A DNA stretch of 64,000 nt from Dulcicalothrix desertica PCC 7102 (lineage in GTDB: Bacteria; Cyanobacteriota; Cyanobacteriia; Cyanobacteriales; Nostocaceae). How positions within the stretch are numbered: position 1 is the first letter of the stretch; each line of letters begins with the position of its first letter. This document shows, piece by piece, positions 10,093-42,475 of this stretch. The notes under the pieces are model-generated. The model ran no database searches. It was not told the DNA's origin and worked only from the letters and a program-made list of their open reading frames with translations. The stretch lies in the NCBI RefSeq assembly GCF_003991905.1, contig NZ_RSCL01000001.1, positions 744,654 through 808,653 on the forward strand, written 5' to 3'. Both the position numbers and the translations under genes were made by a program.

Positions 10093-10804
10093 ATCTAGTT
10101 TTGACTCATTGTATATACGGCTAAGATTCCCGACTTATTAAACAAATCGGGAATCTAATTTTCGTTTCCTGCAACCTATCTATAACTAGTGTCCCCAAAT
10201 TCCTGAAGGCAATAACAGATACATCAGATATTTATTCGATTCCTGAAAATAACTCAAATCTTTATATTAGAGCCTGTAGGATAGACCGGAAAGCCTATCC
10301 TACAATTATACGAATAAACGAGACTTTAGAACTTTAGCTTTCCAAAAATTTCGTAGATTTGCTTTACTTCAATCAGGAAATATGAAAGAAGTTCGTTGAT
10401 GCGCCAAGCGCATGAAACTAACAAACGTTTTTAAGTTGTGCTTGACGACATTATTCGTCTTGAAAAGCTAATAAGTAAACTGTTAGGCGCCGTATATAGT
10501 AAAGAGTGTATTAATACAGTCTTTACAAAACAATACTTACAATGTCAGTTTGGTATAAAATGTAGCTTTTTAACTCAAGTTTTATCTTAAACGTTAAATA
10601 ACAGCCGCTATAATGATTCTAAATTTGCCCTAACTCCTAAGAAACCGGGCTTCTTGAGAAAGATATTGCTAGAAAGCCTTAATTTCTCGTAAAGAAGCCC
10701 GGTTTCTTTGAGCTTGTTTCTTAGGAGTTAACATTGATTTTTAGTAAGATTAACTCAAAAATTTAAAATATCAGCTATATTTTAAAGATTATATAAACTT
10801 TTAC
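10093..10804. other. Gene-free stretch with several hairpin repeats
   Basis: No convincing coding frame. It holds an inverted repeat at 10124-10156 (AGATTCCCGA / TCGGGAATCT), a second at 10275-10304 (TGTAGGATAG / CTATCCTACA), a small GATGCGC hairpin near 10400, and the larger palindromic element at 10631-10730. These look like dispersed cyanobacterial repeats rather than terminators, since none has a convincing T-run in the right place. Confidence 0.6.
10631..10730. repeat. About 100-bp palindromic element (AAACCGGGCTTCTT family)
   Basis: The left end TAACTCCTAAGAAAC and right end TTTCTTAGGAGTTA are inverted copies, and inner arms AAACCGGGCTTCTT / AAGAAGCCCGGTTT pair as well. One arm has an extra insert of about 14 nt. 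A related half-site (ATCGGGCTTCTTGA) occurs near 55287. The element lies about 75 bp beyond the truncated end of the cytosine methyltransferase gene, so it may have taken part in that deletion. Confidence 0.7.
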
Positions 10805-11356
10805 CTAATCTTGTGGTAAGCCAAAATCGTAGGAATTTAAAACCTGATATTTAATTATATAGCCAGCTTGTGTTAAATTAGTTATAATATAGTTTAAGCT
10901 AGCTCTGTTTCTCGGCTCTGTCAAACCTTTTACGTTTTCAAATATAAATGCTTTTGGCTGATTTTCTTTAACTAATTTAAAAACATTAAACCAAAGTTTT
11001 CCTCTTGGGTCGTTTAAACCTAGTAATTTACCTGCTATTGACCACGGTTGACAAGGTACTCCACCCACCAATATATCTATTTCTTCAAAGGGTAATTTAT
11101 TAATATTTGTGATATCTCCTAAATATATCTCTTCAGAATTACATTTTATAAAATTATTTTGATATGTTTTAATAGCTTCTTTATCTATCTCTGAATATCC
11201 TAAACATTGTCCTCCTAATTCTTCCAGAGGAATTCTAAATCCACCGATACCGGCAAATAAGTCTACAAAAGTAAATTTAGAGGTACATACTTTAATATTA
11301 GTTGGTTGAAATAGTTGAAATAATTCTAGTTGTTGAGCATAAATACCTGTTTCCAT
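10805..11356 (-). pseudogene. C-terminally truncated DNA (cytosine-5-)-methyltransferase
   Basis: 183 residues. Visible C5-methyltransferase motifs are motif I (FVDLFAGIGGFRIP, about residue 28), the acidic SEID of motif II, motif IV with the catalytic Cys (GGVPCQPWSIAG, about residue 97), and motif VI (FENVKGL). The frame stops right after YDFGLPQD, where relatives continue with Gln-Asn-Arg-x-Arg and then the target-recognition domain and motifs IX-X. Members are usually over 300 residues, so this copy cannot recognise DNA by itself and is probably inactive. No partner restriction enzyme is visible. The lost part would have lain toward the palindromic element at 10631-10730. Confidence 0.8.
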
Positions 11357-11522
11357 TTTATTACTGTCGGCGCCGCTATATTTAGAAATTTTCCAATAAA
11401 TTATAAATCATAAGATAATACATTTTTGCTACATGTTACAATAATTTAGCATACTACATAAAGAGTGTGAGTTGCAATTAGATAATATTGTTATGCAGCA
11501 AAGGAGCGAATAGTGAGCAGAC

Positions 11523-11555
11523 TGTGGGGCGGGCAGGGATGCCCGCTCCACAAGA
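11523..11555. repeat. Palindromic repeat, GGGCGGGC/GCCCGC-TCCACAAGA family
   Basis: TGTGGGGCGGGC and GCCCGCTCCACA form a near-perfect hairpin just past the stop codon of the GH65 gene. It could help end that transcript, but the same sequence occurs elsewhere in unrelated positions, so it is primarily a dispersed repeat. Confidence 0.65.
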
Positions 11556-11562
11556 GAAGAGT

Positions 11563-13800: not shown

Positions 13801-14365
13801 AATTAGACACAATCCTGAAGTAAAGCCGAAAGTCTCGTCTGTTGGATTCTAGGCAAAAAAAAACAACAATAGCGGAGAAACTTATTGAGTAAACGCTCTT
13901 TCTCCGTCAAATCGAACACAATCAAGCCTAAATAGGCATTTTTTACTAGTTTTATTTCTCGCCCACATCCGTCTATAGATAGGTTTCCTTAATTACCATC
14001 TAAAAAACTGATTATCACTCAAAACTATATAAAGCTAAACATTTCGCAATGCTTTATACAAAACTACATAATTTTCTCATAAAATTAAAACATATTTAAT
14101 CATCCAGAAGGTATATCTATAAACAATTCTACTTTCCCTTGAGTGTATATATGCCGAAACGCTCTCAGTTTACAACTTATTATTACTTCACACTCGTGAA
14201 GGCGCCTTCACTCTTCAGGCTTTATCCACTCGGTTATTATCAGGGGTGATTGCCCTGATTTGAAAAATCAATCGATTTTCTAAATGATTTGATATTGGAA
14301 AAACGGGGAAAAACACGTCTTATATCCCGTTTTCGCGCTTATTACTGCTAAATATGTGACTGAAT
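13801..14365. other. Intergenic stretch upstream of two divergent genes
   Basis: No gene seen. It must hold the promoters for the GH65 gene (leftward) and the broken glycosidase gene (rightward). Small inverted repeats occur: CGGAGAAA / TTTCTCCG at about 13873-13908, a GTGAAGGCGCCTTCAC palindrome near 14200, and ATCAGGG / CCCTGAT near 14240. Confidence 0.5.
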
Positions 14366-15079
14366 ATGAACAAAATTATCAATTCTGTAATTATTGCCGT
14401 TGTAATAACAGTTACAGACACAAGCTACGCACAGTCTATTCCACAAGGGTTTCAAGCTGTAATCAAAGATAATGGTGTACAAGTATACAAAAAAGACTAC
14501 CCAAATGGCAAACAAGAGTATGTCACGGTTGTAAATATAGTAAATGCAACAATAACGAACTTAACTGGAGAAGTAGTAAATACTCAAGAGCGGAATTAAA
14601 AAAAAGCTGATAACTGAGTTTTGGCAAGATGCAGCTACCCGAAACACTTCTACAAAGAAAGCAAGAGTCGTTATTAACGGCGCCTTTTTTTCAACCAATG
14701 ACAACCCAACAGGAATAGCATTCGGTCTAAGAGGTTGTTTGAAAAGTGCCCGTGAATGTCATGCTGAGGAACGAAGCATCTGGTGTATGTGTCCAAAACC
14801 CTAGATTCTACCCTTCGGGAAAGCTTCGCTTACGTTCCGTAAGACTCCACTCAGAATGACAATTTATACCTTATCTGACTTTTCAAACATCCTCTAAAAG
14901 CCAGTGGACGTATAATTACATACAGTTATGCAATAGGTAAAGAATATCCAGGTCAAATTCGTGTGTTCTTCTGGAACAACAATGGTGGTGGAAGTACTAA
15001 TATAATCATCGATGGTAAACCTTTAATTTCTACAAATCGCCTTATACCACACGCAATAGTTATATATTCAGGGAAATAA
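14366..15079 (+). pseudogene. Phosphodiester glycosidase (NAGPA-type) family gene, disrupted
   Basis: The start encodes a signal peptide (MNKIINSVIIAVVITVTDTSYA) followed by GVQVYKKDYPNGKQEYVTVV, typical of the secreted phosphodiester-glycosidase family. A +1 frameshift near a run of A residues (14589-14605) moves the reading frame, after which LITEFWQDAATRN and VVINGAFFSTNDNPTGIAFG continue the protein. A 164-bp MITE interrupts it after FGL. Past the MITE, KASGRIITYSYAIGKEYPGQ resumes, then the frame jumps to NGGGSTNIIIDGKPLIST and ends IYSGK-stop at 15079. Compared with relatives a central piece of perhaps 100 residues seems missing between VFFWNN and GGGST (recollection). Three separate lesions make this clearly dead. 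Confidence 0.8.
14731..14894. mobile_element. 164-bp MITE with 17-bp terminal inverted repeats and TAA target duplication
   Basis: The ends are GAGGTTGTTTGAAAAGT (14731-14747) and ACTTTTCAAACATCCTC (14878-14894), inverted copies with one mismatch. TAA flanks both ends (14728-14730 and 14895-14897). Removing the element plus one TAA restores the frame exactly (GGT CTA AAA GCC, GLKA). The interior has no ORF but carries a GTCATGCTGAGGAACGAAGC / CTCAGAATGACA inverted pair; a similar TGTCATGCTGAAC piece lies near 27527. A 3-bp TNA duplication and these ends suggest mobilisation by an IS5-group transposase (inference). Confidence 0.88.
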
Positions 15080-28497: not shown

Positions 28498-29606
28498 ATG
28501 CTTAACGCCTTACGGCATCTAAGGTTACAGCACAAATTGCTTTGCAGAAACCAGCGCGCGTGTAATTTCCTGCTCAACGCCTTACGGCATCTAAGGTTAC
28601 AGCACGACTTCAATAGGGTAGCTAGTAACGGTGCCAGTATCTGCTCAACGCCTTACGGCATCTAAGGTTACAGCACCATCATAATTAGTTCCACTTGCTA
28701 ATGGTGCATATACTGCTCAACGCCTTACGGCATCTAAGGTTACAGCACAATTTGACTTGTTAACATTATTTAATTATCCTTACTGCTCAACGCCTTACGG
28801 CATCTAAGGTTACAGCACTTCTGATAGTATCTCTTTGAACTTAGACCTGTATTCTGCTCAACGCCTTACGGCATCTAAGGTTACAGCACTCTGCCGCGTC
28901 TGCGAAAACAGAGACGCCCAAAACTGCTCAACGCCTTACGGCATCTAAGGTTACAGCACCAACATAACTTTCTCCCTTGGTTACAAACATTTTACATCTG
29001 CTCAACGCCTTACGGCATCTAAGGTTACAGCACAGTCTTACACTTCTAAAACATGTGGCAACTGTGGTCTGCTCAACGCCTTACGGCATCTAAGGTTACA
29101 GCACAACCTATTTATAGTTGAGTTAAGTAGGTATAGATGCAACTGCTCAACGCCTTACGGCATCTAAGGTTACAGCACCGTTTGATTCAGTAGTAACCAA
29201 ATTTGAAGTAAGTACTGCTCAACGCCTTACGGCATCTAAGGTTACAGCACTTATCTAGAATCTCAAATCCCTGCTGGTGATAGTTCTGCTCAACGCCTTA
29301 CGGCATCTAAGGTTACAGCACGGTCTATCGATTGAGGTTTTGACAAAGAAACATTGCTGCTCAACGCCTTACGGCATCTAAGGTTACAGCACGTTGGGGC
29401 GCCATGCATTGTTAACATCGCATTGTCCCTGCTCAACGCCTTACGGCATCTAAGGTTACAGCACAGCAACATCTCTCTAGCACATTCCAGAAATACTACC
29501 TGCTCAACGCCTTACGGCATCTAAGGTTACAGCACAAATTCCTGATTGCTTTGCGTGCTGTCTTAAGATTCTGCTCAACGCCTTACGGCATCTAAGGTTA
29601 CAGCAC
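28498..29606 (-). CRISPR. CRISPR array 1: 16 repeats of 36 bp, 15 spacers
   Basis: The + strand repeat begins CTGCTCAACGCCTTACGGCA and ends TCTAAGGTTACAGCAC; spacers are about 34-38 bp. Repeats are identical except the leftmost (28498-28533), which has ATGCTTAACG at its start. That decay marks the leader-distal end, and the conserved leader lies on the right (29607-29858), so the array is transcribed leftward. In crRNA sense the repeat contains CCTTA-GATGCCG-TAAGG, a short stem for Cas6 cleavage. It directly follows cas2. Confidence 0.97.
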
Positions 29607-29858
29607 GGCGCCTTCCAAAATCCTTGTATGGCGCAGTTCCCTAGACGATTTTACAAGCACCTGGTGCAAAAAGCTATTACAGAACTTGGTTATATGAGAA
29701 AAGAGAAAAAACTAACTTCTGTAATTCTCTATTGGTAAGCCTTTCAGCATTTTGCAAGCACCTCTAAAGACTTAAAGAGGCTTTAAACTATCCTGCTACA
29801 AGTCTTACAGCGAAAAAAGTTGTCTTTTTTGGTTTCACACTCAGAGGTGCTTGTAATT
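29607..29858 (-). promoter_or_regulatory. Leader of array 1
   Basis: About 250 bp between the first repeat and the cas2 stop. It shares with leaders 2 and 3 a block beside the first repeat (GGCGCCT), ATTTTACAAGCACCTG (29648 on), TTTCAGCATTTTGCAAGCACC (29742-29762) and an inverted AGGTGCTTGTAATTTTAGA (29845-29863), in the same order and similar spacing. The inverted motif abuts the cas2 stop codon. It should contain the array promoter and spacer-integration signals (family knowledge). Confidence 0.8.
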
Positions 29859-30152
29859 TTAGACGATTAAAAAAGGTTCGTCTCGATTTTGCCATATTCC
29901 AGGGCGGTTATATTTTGGGATATCTTCGACACAGCGGTTACTGAGACGAATAAATAGGATATTGTCCTCAGTAGCTAATATTGTTTCTAATTCCCAACGT
30001 AACTTTTCGCGCGTGCGTTGACTTAACCAGCAGCGAAATATTGAGTATTGAACTCTTTCGCCGTATCCTTCTATAAGTTTGTAAGCTTTGCGCCATCGTT
30101 TTTGACAGCGAATGTCGTAACAAATAATGTAGCAATTTTTTAGTTCTGCCAT
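29859..30152 (-). CDS. cas2: CRISPR-associated endonuclease Cas2
   Basis: 97 residues, the normal size. NCYIICYDIRCQKRWRKAYKLIEGYGERVQYSIFRCWLS shows the ferredoxin-like start with the conserved Asp (YDI) and the strand-helix pattern of Cas2; it ends FIRLSNRC...IWQNRDEPFLIV. Cas2 bridges two Cas1 dimers during spacer integration. It follows the cas4-cas1 fusion by 17 bp and precedes leader 1. Confidence 0.95.
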   Translation of the reverse strand: MAELKNCYIICYDIRCQKRWRKAYKLIEGYGERVQYSIFRCWLSQRTREKLRWELETILATEDNILFIRLSNRCVEDIPKYNRPGIWQNRDEPFLIV

Positions 30153-30169
30153 AATTGTCTAAAATTTAT

Positions 30170-31834
30170 TTATCTAACAATTAATTGTGCGAATAATCCA
30201 CCTTCACCTGACCACTCTTTTTCTAATAACCTCACTTCCAGTTCTAAAAGTCTTCGGTATGTTAGTGAGTATTCAGTAACAGGGTGTTTCCAAGTTTCTT
30301 GTTTACGTCTTTCGTACATGTCTACAAATTTACGCTTACCTGCTTCACTTAACCAAACTCTGTTTCCGCGCGCTTCAAAGTCTTCTTTTACATCCCATTG
30401 ACCACGATTTATTGATGCGACAATTGGCATATCAACGAGTGGGACGCGAAAAATCTCCATCAAGTCTAAGGCTAATGGCGGCGCCTGAGTACGAGGTTGA
30501 TGATAAAGTCCTAATGCTGGTTCTAAACCAACTGTTAAAATAGCATTCATCACATCTTTAAGTAACAATGAATACCCAAATCCCAACATTGTATTGAAGC
30601 GGTCTTTAGGTGGGCGCCGATTGCGTCCATCGAATTGTAGCTCATTGGCGACGTTAGGTAAAATTAAACTTGGTAAGGCGCCGAAGTATAAAGCAGCTAG
30701 TCTACCTTCCATTCCAAGTAAAGAAGCAATCGATTTTACTGAAGGAACTTGTTTTAGTAAGACTTGCATCTGCTTAATAGCTGTTTGTAATATCTCTGAT
30801 GCTGCTTTACCTCGTGTACCACGCATCAAAAATTTACGTTGTCCTTGCCCACGACAAATTACTAATCTTTTTGCGAGTTCTAAGCAAGTTTCTGAATTAC
30901 TTAACGCTGCATATTGGCGCACTCGTCGCTGAATGCTACCTTGACGAATATCGAAACTACCAAGGTAACGCCCACCACCAGAAATAAAATGCACCCCAAT
31001 ACCATGTTCTGCACAGAAATATAATGCTTGGGTGGAAATTTGTGAAAAACTGTGTAGTACTAATTGCCCTATTTGTTGTGCTGGTATTTTTTCTTCTGGT
31101 TGACCACGACGGGCAATTTTAATTTGTTCTCCAGTTCTTCCAACTGCTGTACCTGGTTCAAGTACATGTATAATTTGTCGCGTATCGTCTTCTGGAAAAA
31201 GTCTTATTGGTTGCCACTCACGGTCATGTACTAAACGCGCTTCTTCGGGTAAACATACAGGCGCCAATGAACACCTTGCACAAAGCCGTTCATTATCAGC
31301 AACAGGTGGTCTGTGTGTCGATTGTTGTAGTTGACGTGCTTGCTGTATTGCGTCACGTACTGCTTGGCGCCCTGCATCATCTAAAGGAACATGTACCAAA
31401 ACATTATCAGCATGGTAGCGAATACGACCTTCTTTAATTGGAAGACCTAATGCTGATTCAAGTAAACAAGCATAAGCAAGAATCTGCAACTTATCACTTT
31501 CCCAAGCTTGCGGTTGCTTCTTTTCATCCCGATGGCAACGTCCGCGCTTGTGTTCATAAGGAATAGTTTCTCCATCACGAGTTCGTAGCGCATCAACACG
31601 TCCACGCAAACCTAACTCTTCACTAACAAGAAATAATTCCTCCCATTCTTCATCTTCCTTTTTCTCAAGTTCCGTATGTAAACGGCGCCCAGCAAAGACT
31701 GCTGCATCTTGTGTATAAAGTTCCTCAACTTCTTCAAGGTAAAAAAGACGAGGACAATACGCAAGTGCGTGAAGTGAAGACACACGGATAGTTTCAAGTT
31801 TGGTGTTGAGGTCAAGGTATTGAACAGTTTCCAT
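30170..31834 (-). CDS. cas4-cas1: Cas4-Cas1 fusion protein (spacer acquisition)
   Basis: 554 residues from ATG 31832-31834. The Cas4 half (1 to about 205) has the iron-sulphur cysteines Cys27 (AYCPRLFYLEE) and Cys185, Cys188 and Cys194 (LCARCSLAPVC), and RecB-nuclease residues in GRVDALRTRDGETIPYEHKRG. The Cas1 half (about 205-554) contains MLGFGYSLLLKDVMNAILTVG and EPALGLYHQPRTQAPPLALDLMEIFR, the usual Cas1 core. Fused Cas4-Cas1 processes and integrates PAM-bearing spacers and is typical of the MYXAN/Dev I-B type and some I-U/I-G systems. A longer in-frame start at 31912 would translate a CRISPR repeat (VLTSDVVRR), so I rejected it. Confidence 0.95.
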   Translation of the reverse strand: METVQYLDLNTKLETIRVSSLHALAYCPRLFYLEEVEELYTQDAAVFAGRRLHTELEKKEDEEWEELFLVSEELGLRGRVDALRTRDGETIPYEHKRGRCHRDEKKQPQAWESDKLQILAYACLLESALGLPIKEGRIRYHADNVLVHVPLDDAGRQAVRDAIQQARQLQQSTHRPPVADNERLCARCSLAPVCLPEEARLVHDREWQPIRLFPEDDTRQIIHVLEPGTAVGRTGEQIKIARRGQPEEKIPAQQIGQLVLHSFSQISTQALYFCAEHGIGVHFISGGGRYLGSFDIRQGSIQRRVRQYAALSNSETCLELAKRLVICRGQGQRKFLMRGTRGKAASEILQTAIKQMQVLLKQVPSVKSIASLLGMEGRLAALYFGALPSLILPNVANELQFDGRNRRPPKDRFNTMLGFGYSLLLKDVMNAILTVGLEPALGLYHQPRTQAPPLALDLMEIFRVPLVDMPIVASINRGQWDVKEDFEARGNRVWLSEAGKRKFVDMYERRKQETWKHPVTEYSLTYRRLLELEVRLLEKEWSGEGGLFAQLIVR

Positions 31835-31874
31835 AAATGACTGTAAGGTAATTGTAATAAGTTGTACAAATTTT

Positions 31875-33694
31875 ATGCGCCTTACGACATCTGAGGTTAA
31901 AACAGCGACCATCCACGCTTTCGCATTAATTCAATTGAGTGATGCTCAACGCCTTACGACATCTAAGGTTAAAACACCTACGGGAAATGCGACACCCGCA
32001 CCCATCATACTACTGCTCAACGCCTTGCGACATCTAAGGTTAAAACACACACCTATTTTTAGTCGCATGATAAAACATAGCTGCACTGCTCAACGCCTTG
32101 CGACATCTAAGGTTAAAACACCAAATATTGGCGCCTCCAATCACTACCAGTCCTCCCTGCTCAACGCCTTGCGACATCTAAGGTTAAAACACGGCAAAGT
32201 AAATTCAAAGAAGTCATCACCGAAAGAACTGCTCAACGCCTTGCGACATCTAAGGTTAAAACACATTTACCCTACGGATTAAAGTAAAGCTATCTCTTGC
32301 CTGCTCAACGCCTTGCGACATCTAAGGTTAAAACACTTTCTAGTTCTACTTGCTGAAACCCATTACTTACCTCTGCTCAACGCCTTGCGACATCTAAGGT
32401 TAAAACACGATATTTGCTACCCAATTAAATTCAAGAAGGGATTTCTGCTCAACGCCTTGCGACATCTAAGGTTAAAACACCTCTTCACGGCTGTTACCCA
32501 TCCAAGGGTTTGTCTCTGCTCAACGCCTTGCGACATCTAAGGTTAAAACACTTGGATTCAATTCCATCTCTTTCGCACATTTCTTAGCTGCTCAACGCCT
32601 TGCGACATCTAAGGTTAAAACACGGTAGATACCAGTCAGCAACAGTGTTTCAGTATCTCTGCTCAACGCCTTGCGACATCTAAGGTTAAAACACAGTTGA
32701 ATTGCAGTTTACTAGCTGCTTTTTGATTACTGCTCAACGCCTTGCGACATCTAAGGTTAAAACACCTGGCAAAGGTTGTTGGTCGAAACTACCATTTAAA
32801 CTGCTCAACGCCTTGCGACATCTAAGGTTAAAACACCATCAATCCAGTATTCGTCAGGCGTTAAATAGTCTTCTGCTCAACGCCTTGCGACATCTAAGGT
32901 TAAAACACCTTCTTCTAAATTGGTTATATCGCTCGCTACTAATTCTGCTCAACGCCTTGCGACATCTAAGGTTAAAACACTATCAAGTGACAAACGACCC
33001 CAAATGGTTAAATGCTGCTCAACGCCTTGCGACATCTAAGGTTAAAACACCTACCTCTACCAGCTATGAACGTCCCTGAAGTCACTGCTCAACGCCTTGC
33101 GACATCTAAGGTTAAAACACAATGTTTAACTAAACGCCTACTGAAGAACCTAATACCTGCTCAACGCCTTGCGACATCTAAGGTTAAAACACAATTGGGT
33201 TGTACTTCTGGGAAAAAACTTTCAATCACTGCTCAACGCCTTGCGACATCTAAGGTTAAAACACTTCTCACCCAATGATGACCCAATGCAAATAGCTGTA
33301 CTGCTCAACGCCTTGCGACATCTAAGGTTAAAACACTACTTACTCCAAATCTGGTTACTACTGAGTCAAGCTGCTCAACGCCTTGCGACATCTAAGGTTA
33401 AAACACAATATCAGGTAGTAATTTCTAACTTGATTGACCAACTGCTCAACGCCTTGCGACATCTAAGGTTAAAACACCTTCATCATTGCCGCCTAATTAC
33501 AGGGAAACGGCGACTGCTCAACGCCTTGCGACATCTAAGGTTAAAACACGGTCTATTTTGGTTAGAAGCTAATGAGATACGGTAAACTGCTCAACGCCTT
33601 GCGACATCTAAGGTTAAAACACGGATATCCCCGGAAGAGGTAGAGCGTAACGTAGCAGCTGCTCAACGCCTTGCGACATCTAAGGTTAAAACAC
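31875..33694 (-). CRISPR. CRISPR array 2: 26 repeats of 36 bp, 25 spacers
   Basis: The + strand repeat begins CTGCTCAACGCCTTGCGACA and ends TCTAAGGTTAAAACAC. The leftmost copy (31875-31905) has lost 5 bp and decayed; the second (31942-31977) has ACGCCTTACGACA, a variant nearer arrays 1 and 3. The other 24 look identical. Leader 2 is on the right, so transcription is leftward, running straight into cas4-cas1, whose ATG is 41 bp past the last repeat. An array between cas5 and the adaptation genes is unusual. Confidence 0.97.
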
Positions 33695-33965
33695 AGCGCC
33701 TGCTGAAAACATTATGCAGCAAAGCCTCCTAAACAATTTTACAAGCACCTGGCGCCAAATGCTATTACAGAGGTTGATTGCAAAAGCCAGTGAGCAAATT
33801 GGGCTTCTACAACTGTTGACTAGTAAAGCTTTCAGCATTTTGCAAGCACCTTTAAGGACTTGAAAACTACTCCTAACCCTGTTATTACAAGCCTTCTGGG
33901 TGAAAAAGTGATTTTATTAGACTTCACACTCGAAGGTGCTTGCAATTTTAGATGCTTGGTAAATC
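33695..33965 (-). promoter_or_regulatory. Leader of array 2
   Basis: About 270 bp from the first repeat to the cas5 stop. It carries AGCGCCTGCTGAAA beside the repeat, CAATTTTACAAGCACCTGG (near 33735), CTTTCAGCATTTTGCAAGCA (near 33827) and inverted AAGGTGCTTGCAATTTTAGA (near 33932), matching leaders 1 and 3. The match continues to within about 15 bp of the cas5 stop codon. Confidence 0.8.
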
Positions 33966-34613
33966 TTATTCAGTTTGAATTATTGTCCAAGCTTGTTCTG
34001 GTGGATGGGTTTGTGTCTGTTCTCGAAGTAGGTATCGGCGCCAACGAGTACCTTGTGAGCCAACGTGGTCTACCCAATAAGGTAATGCTAATGTTCCATC
34101 TTCGTCTTGAACCAACCAGCGCGGTTGTTTATTAAAACTACCTGACCAAAGTTTGACAGCATTTACTAAATCTCGACTTTCGCCTAATGATAATCCACCA
34201 AAGCGGTCTATCTTTTCAGGATGGGTAAAGGCATTTTGCAAGCGTTCTAATAAATTTGGCTTTGCTGCATCTGTGCCTGGTTTTACCCAAACGATAAATT
34301 CAGTATTTGTCAACAATTCTTGATAATCGGGACGCGCGTTAGTGGGGTCGTGAATATCTTTTTTTTTGAACCTACGAAAGGTTCTGATTACTGTTGATTT
34401 TTCAGGTTCAGATAGTAAAGCGATTGCTAACTCGACTCCACAATGTTTATAACGGTCTGTTTCTCCTACCATAGATAGTAACATTCCGTATACTGTTGAA
34501 GGTGGGGGTACAGGATAAGTTTCTGCATATTCGCGCGCACGAGATTGACGGAAACAGGCTATAGGTACTTCAATTTGGATAGCTAGAGAATTAATTGCTA
34601 AAGAATTTGTCAT
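33966..34613 (-). CDS. cas5: Type I-B (MYXAN) Cas5 / DevS-like
   Basis: 215 residues from ATG 34611-34613, which overlaps the cas7 stop codon as ATGA. LAIQIEVPIACFRQSRAREYAETYPVPPPSTVYGMLLSMVGE is the classic Cas5 N-terminus (strand, PPPSTVYGML, glycine-rich turn). Cas5 caps the 5' handle of crRNA in Cascade. The DevS assignment rests on its place after a DevR-like Cas7 and on the MYXAN gene set. Leader 2 begins right after its stop. Confidence 0.92.
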   Translation of the reverse strand: MTNSLAINSLAIQIEVPIACFRQSRAREYAETYPVPPPSTVYGMLLSMVGETDRYKHCGVELAIALLSEPEKSTVIRTFRRFKKKDIHDPTNARPDYQELLTNTEFIVWVKPGTDAAKPNLLERLQNAFTHPEKIDRFGGLSLGESRDLVNAVKLWSGSFNKQPRWLVQDEDGTLALPYWVDHVGSQGTRWRRYLLREQTQTHPPEQAWTIIQTE

Positions 34614-35545
34614 TTCGTTAACTCCAGTTGTGGTAACTGTAAATCTTGAGCAATTTTTTGTTTTAAGTTTTGTACAGCAGCTTTGATACCTGGGGTTACG
34701 TTGGCGCCTAATTGTTTTAGCTTTTCGCCATGTTCTGAATTCGCAATGCTGCCTGCAACCCATAACTCTTTTGCTTCAAGATCTTTTGCCTCTACACGAC
34801 GTATTAATTCTGGTGCAGTTATTTCACCGTCTTCACCTTCTTCAAAAGAATAAAGGAGTCTAGGTGAAAAATCATGCGTCCATCGCAGCACAATACAATC
34901 TGGAGAAAAATCATATAAAAAGCGCGAATGATTTCCTGCAACCTCACCTAAAGAAGCCAAACCTTCTAAAACTGGAATGATGCGAGATTGATCTTTAAGA
35001 CGGTTTGGAGTTAATGCAAAACCATATTGATAACAGGTTGCATGAACTTCTGTCCCGTAGAGTGATGTGCGACCTTTTTTACCACTTGCTGAATTAAATG
35101 TTAAATCTCCAGCATAAGGAGTCATGGAAACGGCACGAGTAACTTCTAATACTCCACGTTTGGCTGTTGTGGTTCCTTTTGCAGCTTCTTTACCTTTTCC
35201 TTTTGCTGGCTTTTCAGGTTTATCAGAACCTTCTGTTTTGGCGCCTTCTGCTCGCATAAAGCCCAAAACGTCATCATCGATAAAAATAGTATCATCGAAA
35301 TTTTGATTTTCCCAGATATTATCGTTTGTGTCATCATCCCAGCGACGATTAACTTTACAACCATTACCAGCAGTTTGCCAATAATAACGTAATGCCCAAC
35401 GAATAGCTTCTGCTGATACTGTTGTGTGAACTTCTCCTTTCCACAGTATTTTTTGCAAAGTTGTTATATTACCTTCATTTTCACCACGATTATTTGCTGC
35501 TGTACCGTAACTAGTTAATATGTTACCAAAAAGATGTAATGTCAT
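34610..35545 (-). CDS. cas7: Type I-B Cas7 / Cst2 / DevR-like backbone subunit
   Basis: 311 residues. LHLFGNILTSYGTAANNRGENEGNITTLQKILWKGEVHTTVSAEAIRWALRYYWQ matches the DevR/Cst2 N-terminus. An Ala/Lys/Gly-rich loop (EGSDKPEKPAKGKGKEAAKG) at about 110-130 is followed by VTRAVSMTPYAGDLTFNSASG and a C-terminal domain. Cas7 polymerises along crRNA in Cascade. AGGAG lies 9 nt before the ATG. In Myxococcus the homologue DevR also acts in development; there is nothing here to test that. Confidence 0.93.
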   Translation of the reverse strand: MTLHLFGNILTSYGTAANNRGENEGNITTLQKILWKGEVHTTVSAEAIRWALRYYWQTAGNGCKVNRRWDDDTNDNIWENQNFDDTIFIDDDVLGFMRAEGAKTEGSDKPEKPAKGKGKEAAKGTTTAKRGVLEVTRAVSMTPYAGDLTFNSASGKKGRTSLYGTEVHATCYQYGFALTPNRLKDQSRIIPVLEGLASLGEVAGNHSRFLYDFSPDCIVLRWTHDFSPRLLYSFEEGEDGEITAPELIRRVEAKDLEAKELWVAGSIANSEHGEKLKQLGANVTPGIKAAVQNLKQKIAQDLQLPQLELTK

Positions 35546-35612
35546 GAATTATCTACTCCTGTTTTGCTTGTAATATCTAAGTTGGCCTAATTTATGGATT
35601 GGCAACTAAAAG

Positions 35613-37190
35613 TTACTCTAAATCATCAAAACCATATATTCCATCATCTGATTCTTTAACTTCTATATTTTCTGTATTATTATCTGTATCACTGTCACCT
35701 TGATCTTCTCCATTACTAACTCCTTTACCTTTATAACTAGCAAGCGCTAATAAAGCCAAATCTCTAGATTTTTTCCAATGTTTTTCTTGCATAACTAACT
35801 CCATCAAGTCTTGCCAATTTTCTTGCAAAGTTGGAATTTTTCCTGCCCTTGACCAAAAATCAGTAATAAACTCTCGAAAAGTATTAGCATTTTTACAACG
35901 TGCTAATCCTGTTCTTATACGTACAGTTTCTCTGTCAAAATTAGCTACTTCATGTCGTTTCTGAGCGTTGTCGTATATTTTTCCATACGTGTATTTAATT
36001 GCTTCGTGACATACTTGAACAAATAACTTTTCCCGCTCTGCCCAATCTACTTTTTGAACCATTTGGTGTAATCCTCCTCTTTCATACGTTAATCTTTCAA
36101 ATAATTCATTACTGTTAACTTTATCTGCTAAACCTTCATACCAAGGTTTATTTTGTGCAAGATTTTCAGCAATGATTTCGCGAGCAAAGCTGCAAGCAAT
36201 AAATCCGCTTTCTTTTCCTTTAACTGATTTGTCTTGTAAATAATCTTTACAAAATTGATAGTTTTTACAAATTTGACTATCTGCTTTAACTATATACAAA
36301 TCAGTACGTGTTTTTTGCTGTGTAGACCATGCGACAGTTCCTAATGTCACAACTTGGCAATTTGATAAACCAAAAGTCTTAGCAATGTTTGCTGTTGTTT
36401 CATAAGTCAAAAATCTTAGCCCTGCATCACCTAAACCAGATGCATAAAAATCTTTATAAACAGCGTTTCTGAGGTGTTTGTTTTGACGATACAAAGCATA
36501 TTTTTCCAAATCGCTAATTTCAGGTATTACAAGTGCATATTGCGCGCGTTTGTCTCGTAATCTTGAACGAAGAACATAATAGTAACAAGCAACTGGTGCA
36601 AACAGTAGTAAGAATGCATTTTCAGGTGGTTCTTCAAAACTCGTATCTGTACTAAATGCAACATGACGCACTACAGCACCAGGGTTTAACCATCCTGCAA
36701 CACTAATGGGTTTGTTAAGAAACTTACCTCTTTTATCACAAAGATTACTTGCGAAATCTTGATAAGCATAACTTTCCAAAGACTTATAGCTAATAGGTAT
36801 TTGTATCTCTCCCTCATCTAACTGCAAAGTTTCTTTTACAACCCCCGTAGATTTATGAGTACTATTGTGTTGTAAAAATGTACCTAAAATACCTTGATGC
36901 ACTATGACTAAAGCATCTTTCCGCATTGTTTTAGCGTCTAATCCACGCAGTGCGATTAAACCGTCATGAAGCTGGAAACACTTGTTTAGTAACCATTCTA
37001 TAACTGTTTTGTCTTCACCATTATCTTCCCAACTCAGCGTTATTTTTCTATTTGTTGTTTCCCATTTAATTTTGTGAGGAAGGTCAACTTTATCTTTCTC
37101 CAACTGGTTTAAACTTATCCACAATCCTGCCAATCCTGCGCGATGTAATAATGTATAACTAGGATTACTTAAGTCAAACTCTATTTGCAT
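35613..37190 (-). CDS. cas8: Type I-B (MYXAN) Cas8a1 / Cmx1 / DevT-like large subunit
   Basis: 525 residues. The start MQIEFDLSNPSYTLLHRAGLAGLWISLNQLEKD is characteristic of Cmx1/DevT. The C-terminal part is helical (LMELVMQEKHWKKSRDLALLALASYKGKG) and ends in an acidic tail (DTDNNTENIEVKESDDG). As Cascade large subunit it should recognise the PAM and help recruit Cas3 (family knowledge). It overlaps cas3 by 10 bp and is separated from cas7 by 67 bp. Confidence 0.9.
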   Translation of the reverse strand: MQIEFDLSNPSYTLLHRAGLAGLWISLNQLEKDKVDLPHKIKWETTNRKITLSWEDNGEDKTVIEWLLNKCFQLHDGLIALRGLDAKTMRKDALVIVHQGILGTFLQHNSTHKSTGVVKETLQLDEGEIQIPISYKSLESYAYQDFASNLCDKRGKFLNKPISVAGWLNPGAVVRHVAFSTDTSFEEPPENAFLLLFAPVACYYYVLRSRLRDKRAQYALVIPEISDLEKYALYRQNKHLRNAVYKDFYASGLGDAGLRFLTYETTANIAKTFGLSNCQVVTLGTVAWSTQQKTRTDLYIVKADSQICKNYQFCKDYLQDKSVKGKESGFIACSFAREIIAENLAQNKPWYEGLADKVNSNELFERLTYERGGLHQMVQKVDWAEREKLFVQVCHEAIKYTYGKIYDNAQKRHEVANFDRETVRIRTGLARCKNANTFREFITDFWSRAGKIPTLQENWQDLMELVMQEKHWKKSRDLALLALASYKGKGVSNGEDQGDSDTDNNTENIEVKESDDGIYGFDDLE

Positions 37191-39601
37191 GGCTCTGCCC
37201 CTGTCTCTTCGCTATAGTAAATATCTTCAGGAGGAGCAACAGGGTAAAATTTTATCCGGCGCCAATCATATAAATTTTTATCTATATGAACTGGGACTGA
37301 CCATCCTTGTGATTCCCGCATAAAGGATTTATCTGGACGTAACAGGGCTGCATCCTTAATACTTGCTAAATCATTCTCTAATAAAACAGTAACTGTATAA
37401 CCAGGTTGACGTAAAAAATCCGGATAAGCACACCAATTACCTTCTAACCAAATAGATTTTACATTCTCTGGAATATTACTACTAAGTTCAGCCGCAATTT
37501 CTGATAAATCCTGCTGAGAAACAGCACTATTACTAGTTAGTCTACTAAGTAAATCTTTTCCGGTGTCAAGTTCTGTTGTTTTGTAAGGTTTATTATTTGT
37601 CCAAGGATAAATAATTGCTAAACGTGTACCTTCTTCTGGTTTACTCATACGACGGTTTAATCTTCCCAAACGCTGAATCAAAGCTGAAAAAGGCGCCATT
37701 GCCGATACTAGTAAATCAGCACTTAAATCAAGTGACATTTCACACACCTGAGTTGTTATAGCTAGTACAGGTTCATTTGTTTTAAAGGCATCAATTACAG
37801 CCTTATGTTTAATAACTCTATCTCTGTATCTAAAGCGACTGTGGTATATTAACGGGTTAACTTCTACAGATAACTTCTGGACTTCTATTTGAGCTTGACG
37901 GTACAAATCAATACAGGATTGTACGGAGTTTGTGACCCATAGTACTTTTTGTTTATTTTTCAAAGCTTCGAGTACAGATTCCCATACTTCTGGCATATCT
38001 TTGGAATCTGAAACTTCTGTTAACTCGCGTATTTCATAGCGTTTTAGCTTTTCTAATTCTTCTGGTCCTTCAATTGGTTCATCAATTTCTTCACCCAATT
38101 CTGCCATACAAAGGCGAATTTTTGTGAGTTGTCCAGGGGTAAAGCTAGCACTCATCAACAAAATAGGGGCGCCACGAAATGTTTTAATGAATTGTAGTAA
38201 GGCGCCGAATAGTCTTGCATCATAAGCGTGAACCTCATCAAATACAAAAGCTGATTGAGCGATGGCTGTCCAAGCATACAATGGCTTACGGTTATTTTGA
38301 ATTAAGCCTAATACCGTATCAACGGTACAAACTAATAGTTTTTTACGCCATGCAGTAAATGCACTCAAACGCGCGTCGATACCTTCTGAGTCATGTGAAT
38401 CTCCAGAAAAAAGTAACTCTCTGTCCAAATCTGCACGAGAGTGCATTAACTCAGCTTCAATATCAGTTCCTTCTGCATAATCAATAAATCCCTGCGATGC
38501 GGTTCCTGTAGTTGGGTAACAAAAGAACAGCTTACGATTAACTGCCCATTTTTTTGCCCAAGCATAGGCGCCGACTGTCTTACCAGTTCCGCAACCTGCT
38601 TTAACTAAAGTGACTCGGCGTCTTGCTTGAGCAATTTCCTCCTGAAATGGTCGTAAAGGTTGACCTTCTAAACGCTGATTGACTAACCTTTGTATTTCTT
38701 CACTAGATAAAGTCAGACTTAGTACTTCTTGCATCCAGCTTTTAAAATCTTCTTCAACCAAAGGTAGCGCTGAACCTGCAAGGTCAGCAGCCATAACTGT
38801 TGCCTTGACTGCCGCAATAAACTTTTGCTGCTCCCAAGTTAAGTTAGACTCAAGCTTAATAAATTCGTCACGTAGCAAATTTAAAGCTGTTTCCAACTCA
38901 GATTTTGACCAGGTTTCCTTTGGTAATTCTGGTAGTTGCTCCGGTAAACCAAGATACTTACAGCCCATTTTTAAAACAGCTTCAAAATCCTGGTGATGAG
39001 TGTAGATATTTAGCTCACCTCCAGTTCCATCTGGAATTTCTGCAATGAACTCGGCTGGTTTATCATCTTTGTTCACCCCAGTTTTGAGGTGATGTCCCAT
39101 TGCTGCCCAGACAGCAGCGACTAAATCTACATCCTCACATTTTCCAAGCCATTCTCTAATACTAGGAACTTGGAGCGCTAAAATACCACTAATTATTTCA
39201 TGACGCAGCATTTGCCTATTTGAATGCTTATCTGCAAGTTCCTTCAAAACTTTCTTAAAGTTAATAACCTTTGGTTCTTTTGACTTAAAATCAAGTGATT
39301 TCCAATAAAGCATTTCTTGAAAATGCTGATTTGCTTTACCCCAGTCATGTAAATAGGCGCCTAATTTTACAGTCTTAGCAAAGTACTTTAAATCAACGTT
39401 AGTTAATCCTAATTGCTTTAAAATTTGCTCTCCCAATAATTCAACAATCACATCGGCAGCTTGCATAACAAGACTTATATGACCTGTATACTTTGCGGCG
39501 CCACGTGCTTGTTCCGAATAATCCTTTGAACCTTTTTTAGGCAGAGATTTTGCAAGAAGCGGTTTAAATCCTTTAAAATCCGACATAAACTTGGTGTACA
39601 T
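37181..39601 (-). CDS. cas3: CRISPR-associated helicase-nuclease Cas3
   Basis: About 806 residues. The N-terminal HD nuclease shows GAYLHDWGKANQHFQEML (near residue 85) and AAMGHHLKTG. The helicase part has Walker A KAGCGTGKTVGAYAWAK (near 337), the DEVH box FVFDEVHAYDARLF (near 455), LMSASFTPGQ and motif VI LIQRLGRLNRRMSK. HD fused to helicase is the standard type I layout: Cas3 is recruited by Cascade and degrades target DNA. The ATG at 39599-39601 is chosen; a GTG 6 bp upstream and an ATG 15 bp downstream (MSDFKGFKP) are alternatives. Catalytic motifs look intact. Confidence 0.94.
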   Translation of the reverse strand: MYTKFMSDFKGFKPLLAKSLPKKGSKDYSEQARGAAKYTGHISLVMQAADVIVELLGEQILKQLGLTNVDLKYFAKTVKLGAYLHDWGKANQHFQEMLYWKSLDFKSKEPKVINFKKVLKELADKHSNRQMLRHEIISGILALQVPSIREWLGKCEDVDLVAAVWAAMGHHLKTGVNKDDKPAEFIAEIPDGTGGELNIYTHHQDFEAVLKMGCKYLGLPEQLPELPKETWSKSELETALNLLRDEFIKLESNLTWEQQKFIAAVKATVMAADLAGSALPLVEEDFKSWMQEVLSLTLSSEEIQRLVNQRLEGQPLRPFQEEIAQARRRVTLVKAGCGTGKTVGAYAWAKKWAVNRKLFFCYPTTGTASQGFIDYAEGTDIEAELMHSRADLDRELLFSGDSHDSEGIDARLSAFTAWRKKLLVCTVDTVLGLIQNNRKPLYAWTAIAQSAFVFDEVHAYDARLFGALLQFIKTFRGAPILLMSASFTPGQLTKIRLCMAELGEEIDEPIEGPEELEKLKRYEIRELTEVSDSKDMPEVWESVLEALKNKQKVLWVTNSVQSCIDLYRQAQIEVQKLSVEVNPLIYHSRFRYRDRVIKHKAVIDAFKTNEPVLAITTQVCEMSLDLSADLLVSAMAPFSALIQRLGRLNRRMSKPEEGTRLAIIYPWTNNKPYKTTELDTGKDLLSRLTSNSAVSQQDLSEIAAELSSNIPENVKSIWLEGNWCAYPDFLRQPGYTVTVLLENDLASIKDAALLRPDKSFMRESQGWSVPVHIDKNLYDWRRIKFYPVAPPEDIYYSEETGAEPCK

Positions 39602-39636
39602 AAACACTAAAAAGTTTGATTAAACACCTAGAGGCA

Positions 39637-40299
39637 TCAAAGGTTACGATAAGGCATAAAAATTCCACAACCCATATGACGCTTTCCACCTAATCCCCAC
39701 TGCTGCAATTTGACTGAATCTTCATCGCTTAACTGCGTAATTTCGGTAGTAAAGCCAACTATAGTAAAGCGTTTAACTTTGATAGTTTTACGACTTGGTA
39801 AACCTTGCCTATCAAGTGGAACAGAAATATCACCGCTAATATTCAAGTTTTGTAACTGGCGCCGTGCAGCTTCTAAAAATGCATCTTTTTCTGTATAGTC
39901 TTTGCCTTTTATTGTGACAATTCTAGCACGAAGCTTTGACGCTGGTTTTAAAACAGATACAGTTGGAATGCCAATTTGAATTTCGTGTACTCCCACAGAA
40001 AAACGTTTACCTGCCAGTTGATAAACCAAAGGTATTTTAGTAACAGGAACTCGAATCTTTAAATAAGATTGCTCTGTAATAAGGATTTTTCCTTGCTTAT
40101 CCCCAATACCTGGAATAGTCAAAATACTAACATCATCATGCTGCCGCAACTCAGGCACTAAATGAACAAACGCCGCATACAAACCGTAATTATGATCAGC
40201 AGGCAAATACTTACCATGCACTTGATAACCTAATTCTACAAAAGGCGCCAAATCATCCTCAGCGCTCTCGGATGCTGAAACATCTACAGAAGGTTTCAC
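39637..40299 (-). CDS. cas6: Type I-B (MYXAN) Cas6 / Cmx6 crRNA endoribonuclease
   Basis: About 220 residues. After a variable N-terminus, VELGYQVHGKYLPADHNYGLYAAFVHLVPELRQHDDVSILTIPG fits the Cmx6 variant of Cas6, and the glycine-rich loop near the end (LQQWGLGGKRHMGCGIFMPYR) is the RAMP G-loop. The His in the LPADHNYGLY segment is a candidate catalytic residue. I start at GTG 40297-40299 because GAGGGG lies 7 nt upstream; the longer TTG start lacks such a site. It cleaves pre-crRNA within the repeats. First gene of the cas operon. Confidence 0.9.
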   Translation of the reverse strand: MKPSVDVSASESAEDDLAPFVELGYQVHGKYLPADHNYGLYAAFVHLVPELRQHDDVSILTIPGIGDKQGKILITEQSYLKIRVPVTKIPLVYQLAGKRFSVGVHEIQIGIPTVSVLKPASKLRARIVTIKGKDYTEKDAFLEAARRQLQNLNISGDISVPLDRQGLPSRKTIKVKRFTIVGFTTEITQLSDEDSVKLQQWGLGGKRHMGCGIFMPYRNL

Positions 40300-40340
40300 A
40301 AAAATTCCCCTCAACAACTAATGACCGGGCATTATATAGA

Positions 40341-40692
40341 GTTCTCAAAACCTTACGGTATTCAAAGGCACTTACTTTCAGCCAGTAGGAACACAATTCT
40401 TGTGTTCGCTGCTCTCTGCTTTGCTTTCAATTCTATTTAATTTAGCTCTAGTCTATTTGGTTTTACTACACCTTGAAACATCAGAATAACTATAAATTAG
40501 CGCTAACATTATACTTCTGTCAAGTATTTACTTACAAAACTTGTTCAACGCCTGACGGCATCCAAGGTATTAAGCATACAAGGATATATTAGTCCTTGCG
40601 GCTCTACGCAATCCTGCACCTCAATAACTTTACACCGTGAAAATGCTCAAAGCCAAGTTTAATAACGTGTGGCATCACAGGTTAAAACCACA
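40341..40692. repeat. Decayed CRISPR repeats between cas6 and array 3
   Basis: Three degenerate copies: about 40341-40374 (GTTCTCAAAACCTTACGGTA), 40541-40578 (TTGTTCAACGCCTGACGGCA then TCCAAGGTAT), and 40642-40692 (ATGCTCAAAGCC, an insert, GGCATCACAGGTTAAAACCAC). They keep the order and orientation of the live repeats. A fourth possible trace (GAGGCATCAAAGGTTACGAT) overlaps the cas6 stop codon near 39630. They look like the fossil leader-distal end of an older array. Confidence 0.65.
40420..40540 (-). promoter_or_regulatory. Possible cas-operon promoter
   Basis: Reading leftward, TTGACA (near 40530) is followed after 18 bp by TAATTT and a little further by TATAGT, about 200 bp upstream of the cas6 start. 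It is the best sigma-70-like match in the gap, but weak at -10. Confidence 0.3.
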
Positions 40693-40743
40693 ATACCATG
40701 TTTTGACTGAAATATTTTATTCGTGTGCTTCCCAACTTATATT

Positions 40744-40959
40744 TCACGTGCAATCACGACGCACCTTGCCAGCGTAGCAGACTAGAAAATTGCAATTTCC
40801 CAATCTTCGCACTAATGGCTGTTGCTTATGTCGAAGTAAAGTTGATGGAGGTACGTTTATTAATCGAGATGCAATTGAAGTAACTACTGGAAAAGGAAAT
40901 TTCTGTTTTACAGGACTCTGCTGTGCGTAATCAAAAATTGACAGCTGCCGACTCTCCAT
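40744..40959 (-). CDS. Small ORF of unknown status between cas6 and array 3
   Basis: 71 residues (MESRQLSIFDYAQQSPVKQK then FPFPVVTSIASRLINVPPSTLLRH and a Cys-containing end). It has a GGAG about 10-13 nt upstream and lies on the cas strand. I recognise no domain. Its place among decayed CRISPR repeats suggests it could be a chance frame or a gene remnant. Confidence 0.3.
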   Translation of the reverse strand: MESRQLSIFDYAQQSPVKQKFPFPVVTSIASRLINVPPSTLLRHKQQPLVRRLGNCNFLVCYAGKVRRDCT

Positions 40960-41038
40960 AAACTTGCTAACTCCAAGTTTTTACACGTCTATAAATTGAC
41001 TATAGCATAAATTGCTAACTTAACTACTTGAAACATCA

Positions 41039-41073
41039 AAAAAATAACTGAGCCTTCTCAGTAAACGAGAAGG
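41039..41073 (-). terminator. Terminator at the leader-distal end of array 3
   Basis: On the minus strand CCTTCTC-GTTTACT-GAGAAGG forms a 7-bp hairpin, followed after CTCAG by TTATTTTTTT. It lies 45 bp beyond the last repeat of array 3, placed to end the pre-crRNA transcript before cas6. Confidence 0.55.
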
Positions 41074-41117
41074 ACTTATGCTTTGTGCCTCAAAAGTTTT
41101 CACCAAGCCAAAACAAA

Positions 41118-42215
41118 ATGCTTAACGCTTTGTGACATCTAAGGTTACAACACGAAGTTATTTGAGGCTTTCCGCATCCGTTCTTGCTCAACGCTTTACG
41201 ACATCTTAGGTTACAACACGATACCTGTCCCGCGCGTGTTGATAATTTCTAACATGCTCAACGCCTTACGACATCTTAGGTTACAACACAGCGATATAAC
41301 TAATTTAGAAGAAGCCAAGCAATCAGATGCTCAACGCCTTACGACATCTTAGGTTACAACACGTCAAGAGCAATTGATTGAGCGCGCCAAAGAAGAAATG
41401 CTCAACGCCTTACGACATCTTAGGTTACAACACAATCGCGCTTTAACTGTACCACCCAACAGCGTAATATGCTCAACGCCTTACGACATCTTAGGTTACA
41501 ACACCTGCAACATTGCTTCAAATTCGCTTGTAACTTTTTATGCTCAACGCCTTACGACATCTTAGGTTACAACACTGACCCTATCACAAATCAAGAATTT
41601 GACGGATTTAATGCTCAACGCCTTTCGACATCTAAGGTTAAAACACAATTAGTTCTTCTGCTGCTTTTGTATTTTTCATTTAATGCTCAACGCCTTTCGA
41701 CATCTAAGGTTAAAACACCAAGTACGGATATGTTGGCTTTGTCGTAATAGATTAATGCTCAACGCCTTTCGACATCTAAGGTTAAAACACGAAGTCAAGG
41801 ATGATTACCAAGGGCAGGGTGTTGATGCTCAACGCCTTTCGACATCTAAGGTTAAAACACAATTTAAACGAACAGAAGAAAAACGAAATAGTTAATGCTC
41901 AACGCCTTTCGACATCTAAGGTTAAAACACGTTAAATTAGGCAAAGTATTAGTAGCTGTAATTGTATGCTCAACGCCTTTCGACATCTAAGGTTAAAACA
42001 CAGTGTTGACACACACGATAGAAACAGCGATTTCAATGCTCAACGCCTTTCGACATCTAAGGTTAAAACACAGAAGTAATCCGCACAATTCCTGAGCATG
42101 GATTCCAATGCTCAACGCCTTTCGACATCTAAGGTTAAAACACTGTCAAGGATTAAAAATTACCACCACGATTTGATAAATGCTCAACGCCTTTCGACAT
42201 CTAAGGTTAAAACAC
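41118..42215 (-). CRISPR. CRISPR array 3: 16 repeats, 15 spacers, two repeat lineages
   Basis: The eight leftmost positions up to 41575 comprise one decayed copy (41118) and six copies carrying TTACGACATCTTAGGTTACAACAC-like ends (one of them, 41184, starting TTGCTCAACGCTT). From 41611 rightward all nine copies instead carry TTTCGACATCTAAGG then TTAAAACAC. All begin ATGCTCAACGCC. The leader is on the right (42216-42475), so the right block is the recently extended part. The array is transcribed leftward toward cas6. Confidence 0.97.
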
Positions 42216-42475
42216 GGCACCTGCTGGAAGGCTTACGTGGTAATGCTCCTTCAACAATTTTACAAGCACCTGTTGCAAAAAGCTAATACAGCTTCTGAGA
42301 ATGTTCAAACATCGGAAGAAGCGACTTTTGAAACTCTTTGTCAGTAAGGGTTTCAGCATTTTGCAAGCACCTGTAATAGTTGTAAAAGTGTTTAAATTCT
42401 ATGCCTGTAAGCTTTTTAAGTGGAAATGCTATACTTTTTGACTTCGCACTTAGAGGTGCTTGCATTTAAACTCAT
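42216..42475 (-). promoter_or_regulatory. Leader of array 3
   Basis: About 260 bp. GGCACCTGCTGGAAGG lies beside the first repeat, CAATTTTACAAGCACCTG at about 42254, TTTCAGCATTTTGCAAGCA at about 42350 and inverted TTAGAGGTGCTTGCATTT at about 42448. These are the same elements in the same order as leaders 1 and 2. The sequence between motifs is largely diverged, which makes the motif conservation stand out. Confidence 0.8.

Follow-up and report, generated by a model that had tools for sequence, protein, structure and literature searches.

Several ways of marking the leader end of a clustered regularly interspaced short palindromic repeats (CRISPR) array have been described. In type I-E and I-F systems, integration host factor (IHF) bends upstream DNA to Cas1-Cas2 (PMC12259127; PMC9602844), and in IHF leaders helical phase rather than exact distance is expected to matter (PMC9602844). 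The type I-D leader, 202-220 base pairs (bp) long, has three conserved elements (motifs I-III) that enhance spacer uptake; motif III is likened to the integrase anchoring site of type I-E, Synechocystis is reported to have no IHF homologue, and the exact function of the motifs is described as still to be identified (PMC10212523). In the type I-A system of S. islandicus, a proximal element (the Cas1 site, a stem-loop) and a distal one both matter for adaptation, and the regulator Csa3a, which binds the leader-distal motif, also acts in adaptation (PMC9456107). A type I-G Cas4-Cas1 fusion carries out directional integration at the leader-repeat junction (PMC10274657). By what means a system that has Cas4 but no IHF recognises the right end of its array is the question addressed here, through the leaders of a type I-MYXAN (I-B variant) locus in a stretch of 64,000 nucleotides from Dulcicalothrix desertica PCC 7102 (contig NZ_RSCL01000001.1, positions 744,654 to 808,653), below called the window; negative positions in leaders are counted from the first repeat.

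All three I-MYXAN arrays of the window have leaders built to one plan: a proximal site, AGGTGCTTGYAAAAT, a direct copy in the middle and an inverted distal copy. The nine copies that the first-pass annotation had described, two direct and one inverted per leader, are all where it placed them, their 12-mers starting at 29651(-)/29752(-)/29845(+), 33739(-)/33840(-)/33934(+) and 42260(-)/42361(-)/42454(+), and none differs from AGGTGCTTGCAA by more than one mismatch. The proximal site starts 56 bp before the first repeat and its 15-mer ends about 41 bp before it; the direct copies are 101 bp apart in 3/3 leaders, and the direct-inverted distances are 93, 94 and 93 bp by 12-mer starts (about 96 bp), in agreement with the estimates of about 40, 95-100 and 85-100 bp made earlier. 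Divergence between the motifs is equally evident: pairwise identity of the three leaders is 57-62% outside the motifs and 94-97% inside, and 34/36 motif columns are invariant versus 93/215 other leader columns (Fisher p = 2e-9). The inverted copy lies near the outer edge of the homology among the three leaders. That edge had been placed beside the upstream gene, which is true of leaders 1 and 2 (2 bp past the stop of cas2 and 17 bp past that of cas5, respectively), whereas the outer end of leader 3 is intergenic, about 190 bp from an RND permease gene.

The exact word AGGTGCTTGYAA occurs 10 times in the 11.4-Mb genome, and the three leaders account for eight of these occurrences (their remaining copy, the one at 42454, ends AT for AA and hence falls outside this count); the remaining two are on contigs without a detected I-MYXAN-type repeat, and a reversed-pattern control gave two. 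With up to two mismatches to AGGTGCTTGCAA, the window holds 14 matches against a shuffle mean of 7.25, the five outside the leaders being two-mismatch matches. A chance origin of the motif is rejected by the window shuffles, the genome word count and the column conservation.

The plan extends across the class. A search of 388 class genomes with the Cas1 model TIGR03983 returned 68 above cut-off; 69 places from the 67 genomes other than the host, together with 13 named loci (all cyanobacterial by title), were examined by a script that searched 85 sequences for arrays, 83 of them Cas1 loci or the window. Fourteen of the 83 had no array in reach and three (L098, L103, L104) only arrays of another repeat; the other 66 gave 79 leader candidates, reduced to 73 by dropping six (truncated repeat consensus or start within an array), to 63 by removing 10 near-duplicates, and to a first set of 61 by removing L079:17186 and L095:12123, which start within arrays. 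The window contributes leader 3 alone, its other two leaders being near-duplicates. A matrix built from 58 proximal sites was then applied to the leaders, with thresholds of >5 bits (proximal), >=8 bits (middle) and >=6 bits (distal). A second set, not used for the matrix, drew on an order-wide search of 388 genomes (24 loci and 20 further places) and seven annotated plasmids; these 51 loci, nine without a usable array, gave 45 leaders, of which 35 were kept after removal of 10 near-duplicates. This set excludes any leader with >85% identity across 120 bp to one already taken, and it includes the secondary array pieces L190:10315, L190:11183 and L194:12867.

The best proximal match in the first set lies at -56 in 54/61 leaders (51 above 5 bits), at -58 in six and at -55 in one, and a match within -60 to -51 was recorded for 57/61, figures that are partly circular because the matrix derives from the same sites; in the second set, 27/35 leaders have the site at -56 above 5 bits. 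The middle site reaches threshold in 50/61 leaders versus 2.4% of shuffles, and in 27/35 of the second set; the distal site does so in 32/61 versus 4.1% of shuffles, and in 19/35. All three sites are scorable in 37/61 and 18/35 leaders.

Among the 75 leaders of both sets with scored proximal and middle sites, the distance between the two is 99-104 bp in 47, 109-114 bp in 18, 121-124 bp in nine and 136 bp in one, with none at 105-108 or 115-120 bp; the mean vector is 0.73 at a period of 10.5 bp and 0.77 at 11-11.5 bp. The middle-distal distance is 95-98 bp in 57/58 pairs (middle >=8, distal >=4 bits). Because the proximal site is fixed at -56, the middle-distal distance is rigid and the proximal-middle distance is stepped, the leader consists of two rigid modules, repeat-proximal and middle-distal, linked by DNA whose length differs by roughly a helical turn from one spacing class to the next. 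Such shifts appear to have occurred several times over, since the spacing class changes at least 13 times on a quick Cas1 tree of 67 leaders, a tree with many weak forks (21/51 are open in the first-set tree). The positions, conservation and orientation of the sites, their rigidity and the stepped spacing are thus observed features of these leaders.

Sequence comparison suggests that the three sites together serve as a conserved docking scaffold on which spacers are inserted at the I-MYXAN leader-repeat junction, a reading to which we assign a probability of about 0.65. Held at a fixed distance, the proximal site would have its binder touch the same complex that grips the first repeat; the middle and distal sites would act as a rigid inverted pair, brought against the proximal site by DNA bending or looping, and connecting DNA whose length changes only by about whole helical turns would keep the sites on one face. 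The reader would most likely be the Cas4/1-Cas2 integrase or a partner travelling with it. Stepped spacing and rigid modules are predicted by a looped complex, which they suggest rather than prove; a role in adaptation, the looping itself and the identity of the binding protein are what we infer. The first-pass annotation had proposed a protein-binding array, with an IHF-like protein, Cas1-Cas2/Cas4 docking or a regulator as candidates. The array is well supported, since order and spacing recur class-wide, in the second set and in helical-turn steps; among the candidates, Cas1-Cas2/Cas4 docking is our best guess, a regulator appears less likely, and IHF is an improbable binder. A more detailed version, offered tentatively, is a looped complex that works without IHF: a single protein, either Cas4/1-Cas2 or a partner yet to be discovered, would occupy the word at all three places along 250 bp, twice direct and once inverted, and the rigid distal pair would fold back against the proximal site; the CTTGnAAAA core, displaced by about one turn, would perhaps serve type I-D as well and point to shared leader finding of the Cas4 type.

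Two further comparisons bear on what the leader belongs to. Among leaders with Cas8a1 effectors, those of the window and of L192 have three sites and L190 has the proximal and middle ones; with Cmx8 effectors, L194 has three sites and L193 and L199 have the proximal and middle ones. Because the plan occurs with two Cas8 types, the leader ties to the adaptation module rather than to interference. The distal site is part of the leader and not of cas2, because the L192 leader (Gloeothece citriformis plasmid) keeps three sites though separated from cas2; TnpB and IS4 genes lie between the two (8155-10664). On other plasmids, L194 (Nostoc sp. CENA543) has two blocks of one CRISPR repeat separated by genes for recombinase, DDE integrase and AAA ATPase (9298-12563), an arrangement that resembles a transposon insertion into the array, and L191 (Cylindrospermopsis) has a WYL-domain regulator gene between cas2 plus array and cas6 (9671-10570).

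Several observations weigh against the scaffold reading. A search for homologous leaders lacking the motif or its spacing found that most keep the proximal and middle sites, but the three sites occur together in just 55/96 leaders by the thresholds used: 11/61 and 8/35 leaders have no middle site of 8 bits, and the distal site, the weakest, falls below 6 bits in 29/61 and 16/35. For the first set a period of about 11.4 bp fits best, rather than 10.5, and the spacing classes are 4-6 bp wide; in L203, which is not among the 75 leaders, the middle-like match lies at -148, and its spacing of 92 bp falls outside the classes. The exact 14-mer is weakly tied to Cas1, being present in 13/68 genomes with Cas1 and 31/320 without, and among the matches in Cas1-less genomes 20/32 were inspected, 17 of them in open frames of at least 194 codons. 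All three sites are moreover retained in L197 (genome G019) and L205 (G044), where no Cas1 was detected and no cmx6 was found; there the sites either outlive the loss of Cas1 or serve another use.

The exact 14-mer was accordingly rejected as a genome marker, not being diagnostic. Two loci, L208 (G178) and L215 (G145), are possible relic leaders: their motif copies lie outside long frames with more motif-like matches nearby, and the repeat core was not found within 400 bp downstream of the copies.

Genomes with I-MYXAN repeats but no I-MYXAN Cas1 above cut-off (G019, G065, G339, G109, G161, G044 and G111 were followed; G016, G064, G128, G140 and G242, with one or two repeat matches, were left aside, as were L200, L204 and L206 in the judgement of sites, since they start at or near a contig edge) give a mixed picture of site retention. 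L198, in the one-contig genome G065, has an I-MYXAN effector operon and a 26-repeat array (about 7950-15062) with no Cas1 match of any kind in the genome; it has none of the three sites and its leader end abuts other DNA, so the whole leader seems to be gone and the absence is not specific to the sites. In L199 (G339, a genome with two other Cas1 matches elsewhere), a cas4-like frame without a Cas1 part (11007-11888) runs up to the leader, which retains intact proximal and middle sites but has no distal one. L203 (G161, with two short Cas1-like matches) retains the proximal site. In G036, which has Cas1, two further arrays were seen, L201 at a contig edge and L202 with three sites.

Leaders of type I-D served as a control: 30 loci (L115-L144), four without an array, gave 26 leaders, one of them (L125) from the host genome. 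Their proximal word is ACCTTGAAAACT, with CTTG at -39, 12 bp closer to the repeat than the CTTG of the I-MYXAN proximal site at -51; TCCGCGCA lies just upstream, near -54, and 19/26 have a -10-like box at -68 or -67. An upstream match to the I-MYXAN word of at least 8 bits is present in 4/26 (best 12.1 bits) and absent from 22/26. The I-MYXAN word therefore goes with the Cas1 lineage and not with the host.

This bears on the reading in which a host DNA-bending or nucleoid protein, rather than a Cas protein, recognises the sites and, like IHF in types I-E and I-F, folds leader DNA for Cas1-Cas2. We consider it unlikely, though it is the most probable of the rivals: IHF has this role in types I-F and I-E (PMC12259127; PMC9602844), a bending host factor has been speculated for type I-D given that Synechocystis is reported to lack an IHF homologue (PMC10212523), and a common host factor could explain why CTTGnAAAA occurs in both I-D and I-MYXAN leaders. 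Against it, hardly any copies of the exact word occur in the genome outside these leaders, which is unexpected for a general nucleoid protein, and the host's own I-D leader, L125, scores low with the I-MYXAN matrix (2.1 bits on the plus strand, 6.3 bits on the minus strand). The one PF00216 match in 11.4 Mb is the single HU/IHF-family gene found, so no IHF heterodimer is available and IHF itself, which the first-pass annotation had named, is an unlikely binder. HU is not known for such sequence specificity. Less probable still is a transcription regulator of the array promoter, for which the spacing would reflect promoter architecture and not integration. Leaders do contain the array promoter, as reported for type I-D (PMC10212523), Csa3a of S. 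islandicus I-A offers a precedent (PMC9456107), and the persistence of sites in the two genomes without detected Cas1 would suit such a role, though cmx6 is missing from the findings there too. Yet the I-MYXAN leaders have no fixed -10-like box, TATAAT (at most one mismatch, -110 to -55) being scattered in 24/54 of them where most I-D leaders keep theirs in place; a scan of the window gave no copy of the word close to the operon's cas6 end; and the annotated products of the seven plasmid loci, several of whose proteins are hypothetical, include no recurrent regulator.

Two other explanations did not survive their controls. The prospect that the leader also holds degenerate repeat copies (pseudo-repeats), bound by the integrase like a repeat, was raised by stretches resembling the repeat at -33, middle-43 and middle+20 (raw z scores of 15, 12 and 10). 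The proximal peak (-25.4), however, is about two standard deviations above the permuted-column mean (-33.1, standard deviation 3.8) and below the control maximum (-17.2), and the middle peaks do not exceed the permuted-column control; having failed it, the idea was rejected and is now very improbable. Recent duplication as the sole cause of the likeness among the window leaders has in its favour that the three are homologous. The gap in identity between motifs and flanks speaks against it, as does the presence of the pattern in other families of the class; the class-wide leader set led to its rejection, and hardly any weight is left to it.

The locus itself lies on the minus strand of the window and comprises cas6/cmx6, cas3, cas8a1/csx13, cas7/devR, cas5/cmx5, a cas4-cas1 fusion and cas2 (Table 1). 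Its assignment to I-MYXAN follows from a Cas1 above the TIGR03983 cut-off that is fused to Cas4 and sits beside cas2 and an array, and from an effector set of cmx5, devR/cas7, cas8a1 (for which cmx8 is the alternative), cas3 and cmx6. No further arrays with the I-MYXAN repeat were found in the genome, all 58 repeat-pattern matches (up to three mismatches) lying inside the window. A single repeat-like copy with two mismatches, at 40545-40568 between cas6 and array 3, belongs to no array.

Table 1. Positions in the window of the I-MYXAN genes, arrays, leaders and leader sites.
Feature	Position	Strand	Remarks
cas2	29859..30152	-	97 amino acids; TIGR01573, 51 bits (cut-off 24.5)
cas4-cas1 fusion, type I-MYXAN Cas1	30170..31912	-	TIGR03983, 577 bits (cut-off 358); Cas4 domain N-terminal
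Interference genes cas5/cmx5, cas7/devR, cas8a1/csx13, cas3, cas6/cmx6	33966..40317	-	
CRISPR array 1	28498..29606	-	16 repeats counted; repeat GTGCTGTAACCTTAGATGCCGTAAGGCGTTGAGCAG; first repeat 29571-29606
CRISPR array 2	31942..33694	-	25 repeats counted
CRISPR array 3, leader-proximal block	41609..42215	-	9 repeats; variant repeats extend to about 41122
Leader 1, distal site to leader-repeat junction	29607..29859	-	
Leader 1 proximal site	29648..29662	-	AGGTGCTTGTAAAAT; start 56 bp from first repeat
Leader 1 middle site	29749..29763	-	AGGTGCTTGCAAAAT; direct; 101 bp from proximal site
Leader 1 distal site	29845..29859	+	AGGTGCTTGTAATTT; inverted relative to the other two; last base within cas2 stop codon
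Leader 2, distal site to junction	33695..33948	-	
Leader 2 proximal site	33736..33750	-	AGGTGCTTGTAAAAT
Leader 2 middle site	33837..33851	-	AGGTGCTTGCAAAAT
Leader 2 distal site	33934..33948	+	AGGTGCTTGCAATTT; inverted
Leader 3, distal site to junction	42216..42468	-	
Leader 3 proximal site	42257..42271	-	AGGTGCTTGTAAAAT
Leader 3 middle site	42358..42372	-	AGGTGCTTGCAAAAT
Leader 3 distal site	42454..42468	+	AGGTGCTTGCATTTA; inverted; 1 mismatch in 12-mer

These leaders supply a class-wide rule with exact positions and a phase rule, and the leader word is a mark by which I-MYXAN arrays can be oriented. Within the literature searched, the letters of the motif turn up in 11 papers, none with a CRISPR title; the 2025 leader-motif catalogue (Buyukyoruk et al.), Santiago-Frangos et al. 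(2021, on phasing) and Kieper et al. (2019, on the type I-D motifs) fall outside that scope, so a prior description is possible.

Among described systems, the type I-G Cas4/1-Cas2 resembles the present one in that a Cas4-Cas1 fusion performs integration; it differs in that the available part of its report (PMC10274657) is concerned with prespacer processing and orientation, with no leader motif like that of I-MYXAN met there. The Sulfolobus I-A leader likewise has separate proximal and distal elements, but there a stem-loop serves as the proximal one and Csa3a reads the distal one, whereas in I-MYXAN a single word makes up every site and the annotated products of the seven plasmid loci show no recurrent regulator. 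IHF-dependent I-E and I-F leaders share with I-MYXAN an upstream site at a conserved distance or helical phase; unlike them, the I-MYXAN leader has no IHF pair to rely on and presents one word three times, direct and inverted, over 250 bp. The I-D leader is also long and has three conserved elements, and it departs from I-MYXAN in its proximal word, the position of its CTTG, the presence of TCCGCGCA and its fixed -10-like box. Because CTTGnAAAA and the leader end TTTCAG....CGC are common to both, I-D and I-MYXAN leaders may be related, and both may be read by some component that adaptation complexes of the Cas4 type have conserved. Phased leader motifs are already known from the IHF systems, as are three motifs from type I-D, and the three-site plan of I-MYXAN is a variant on that theme.

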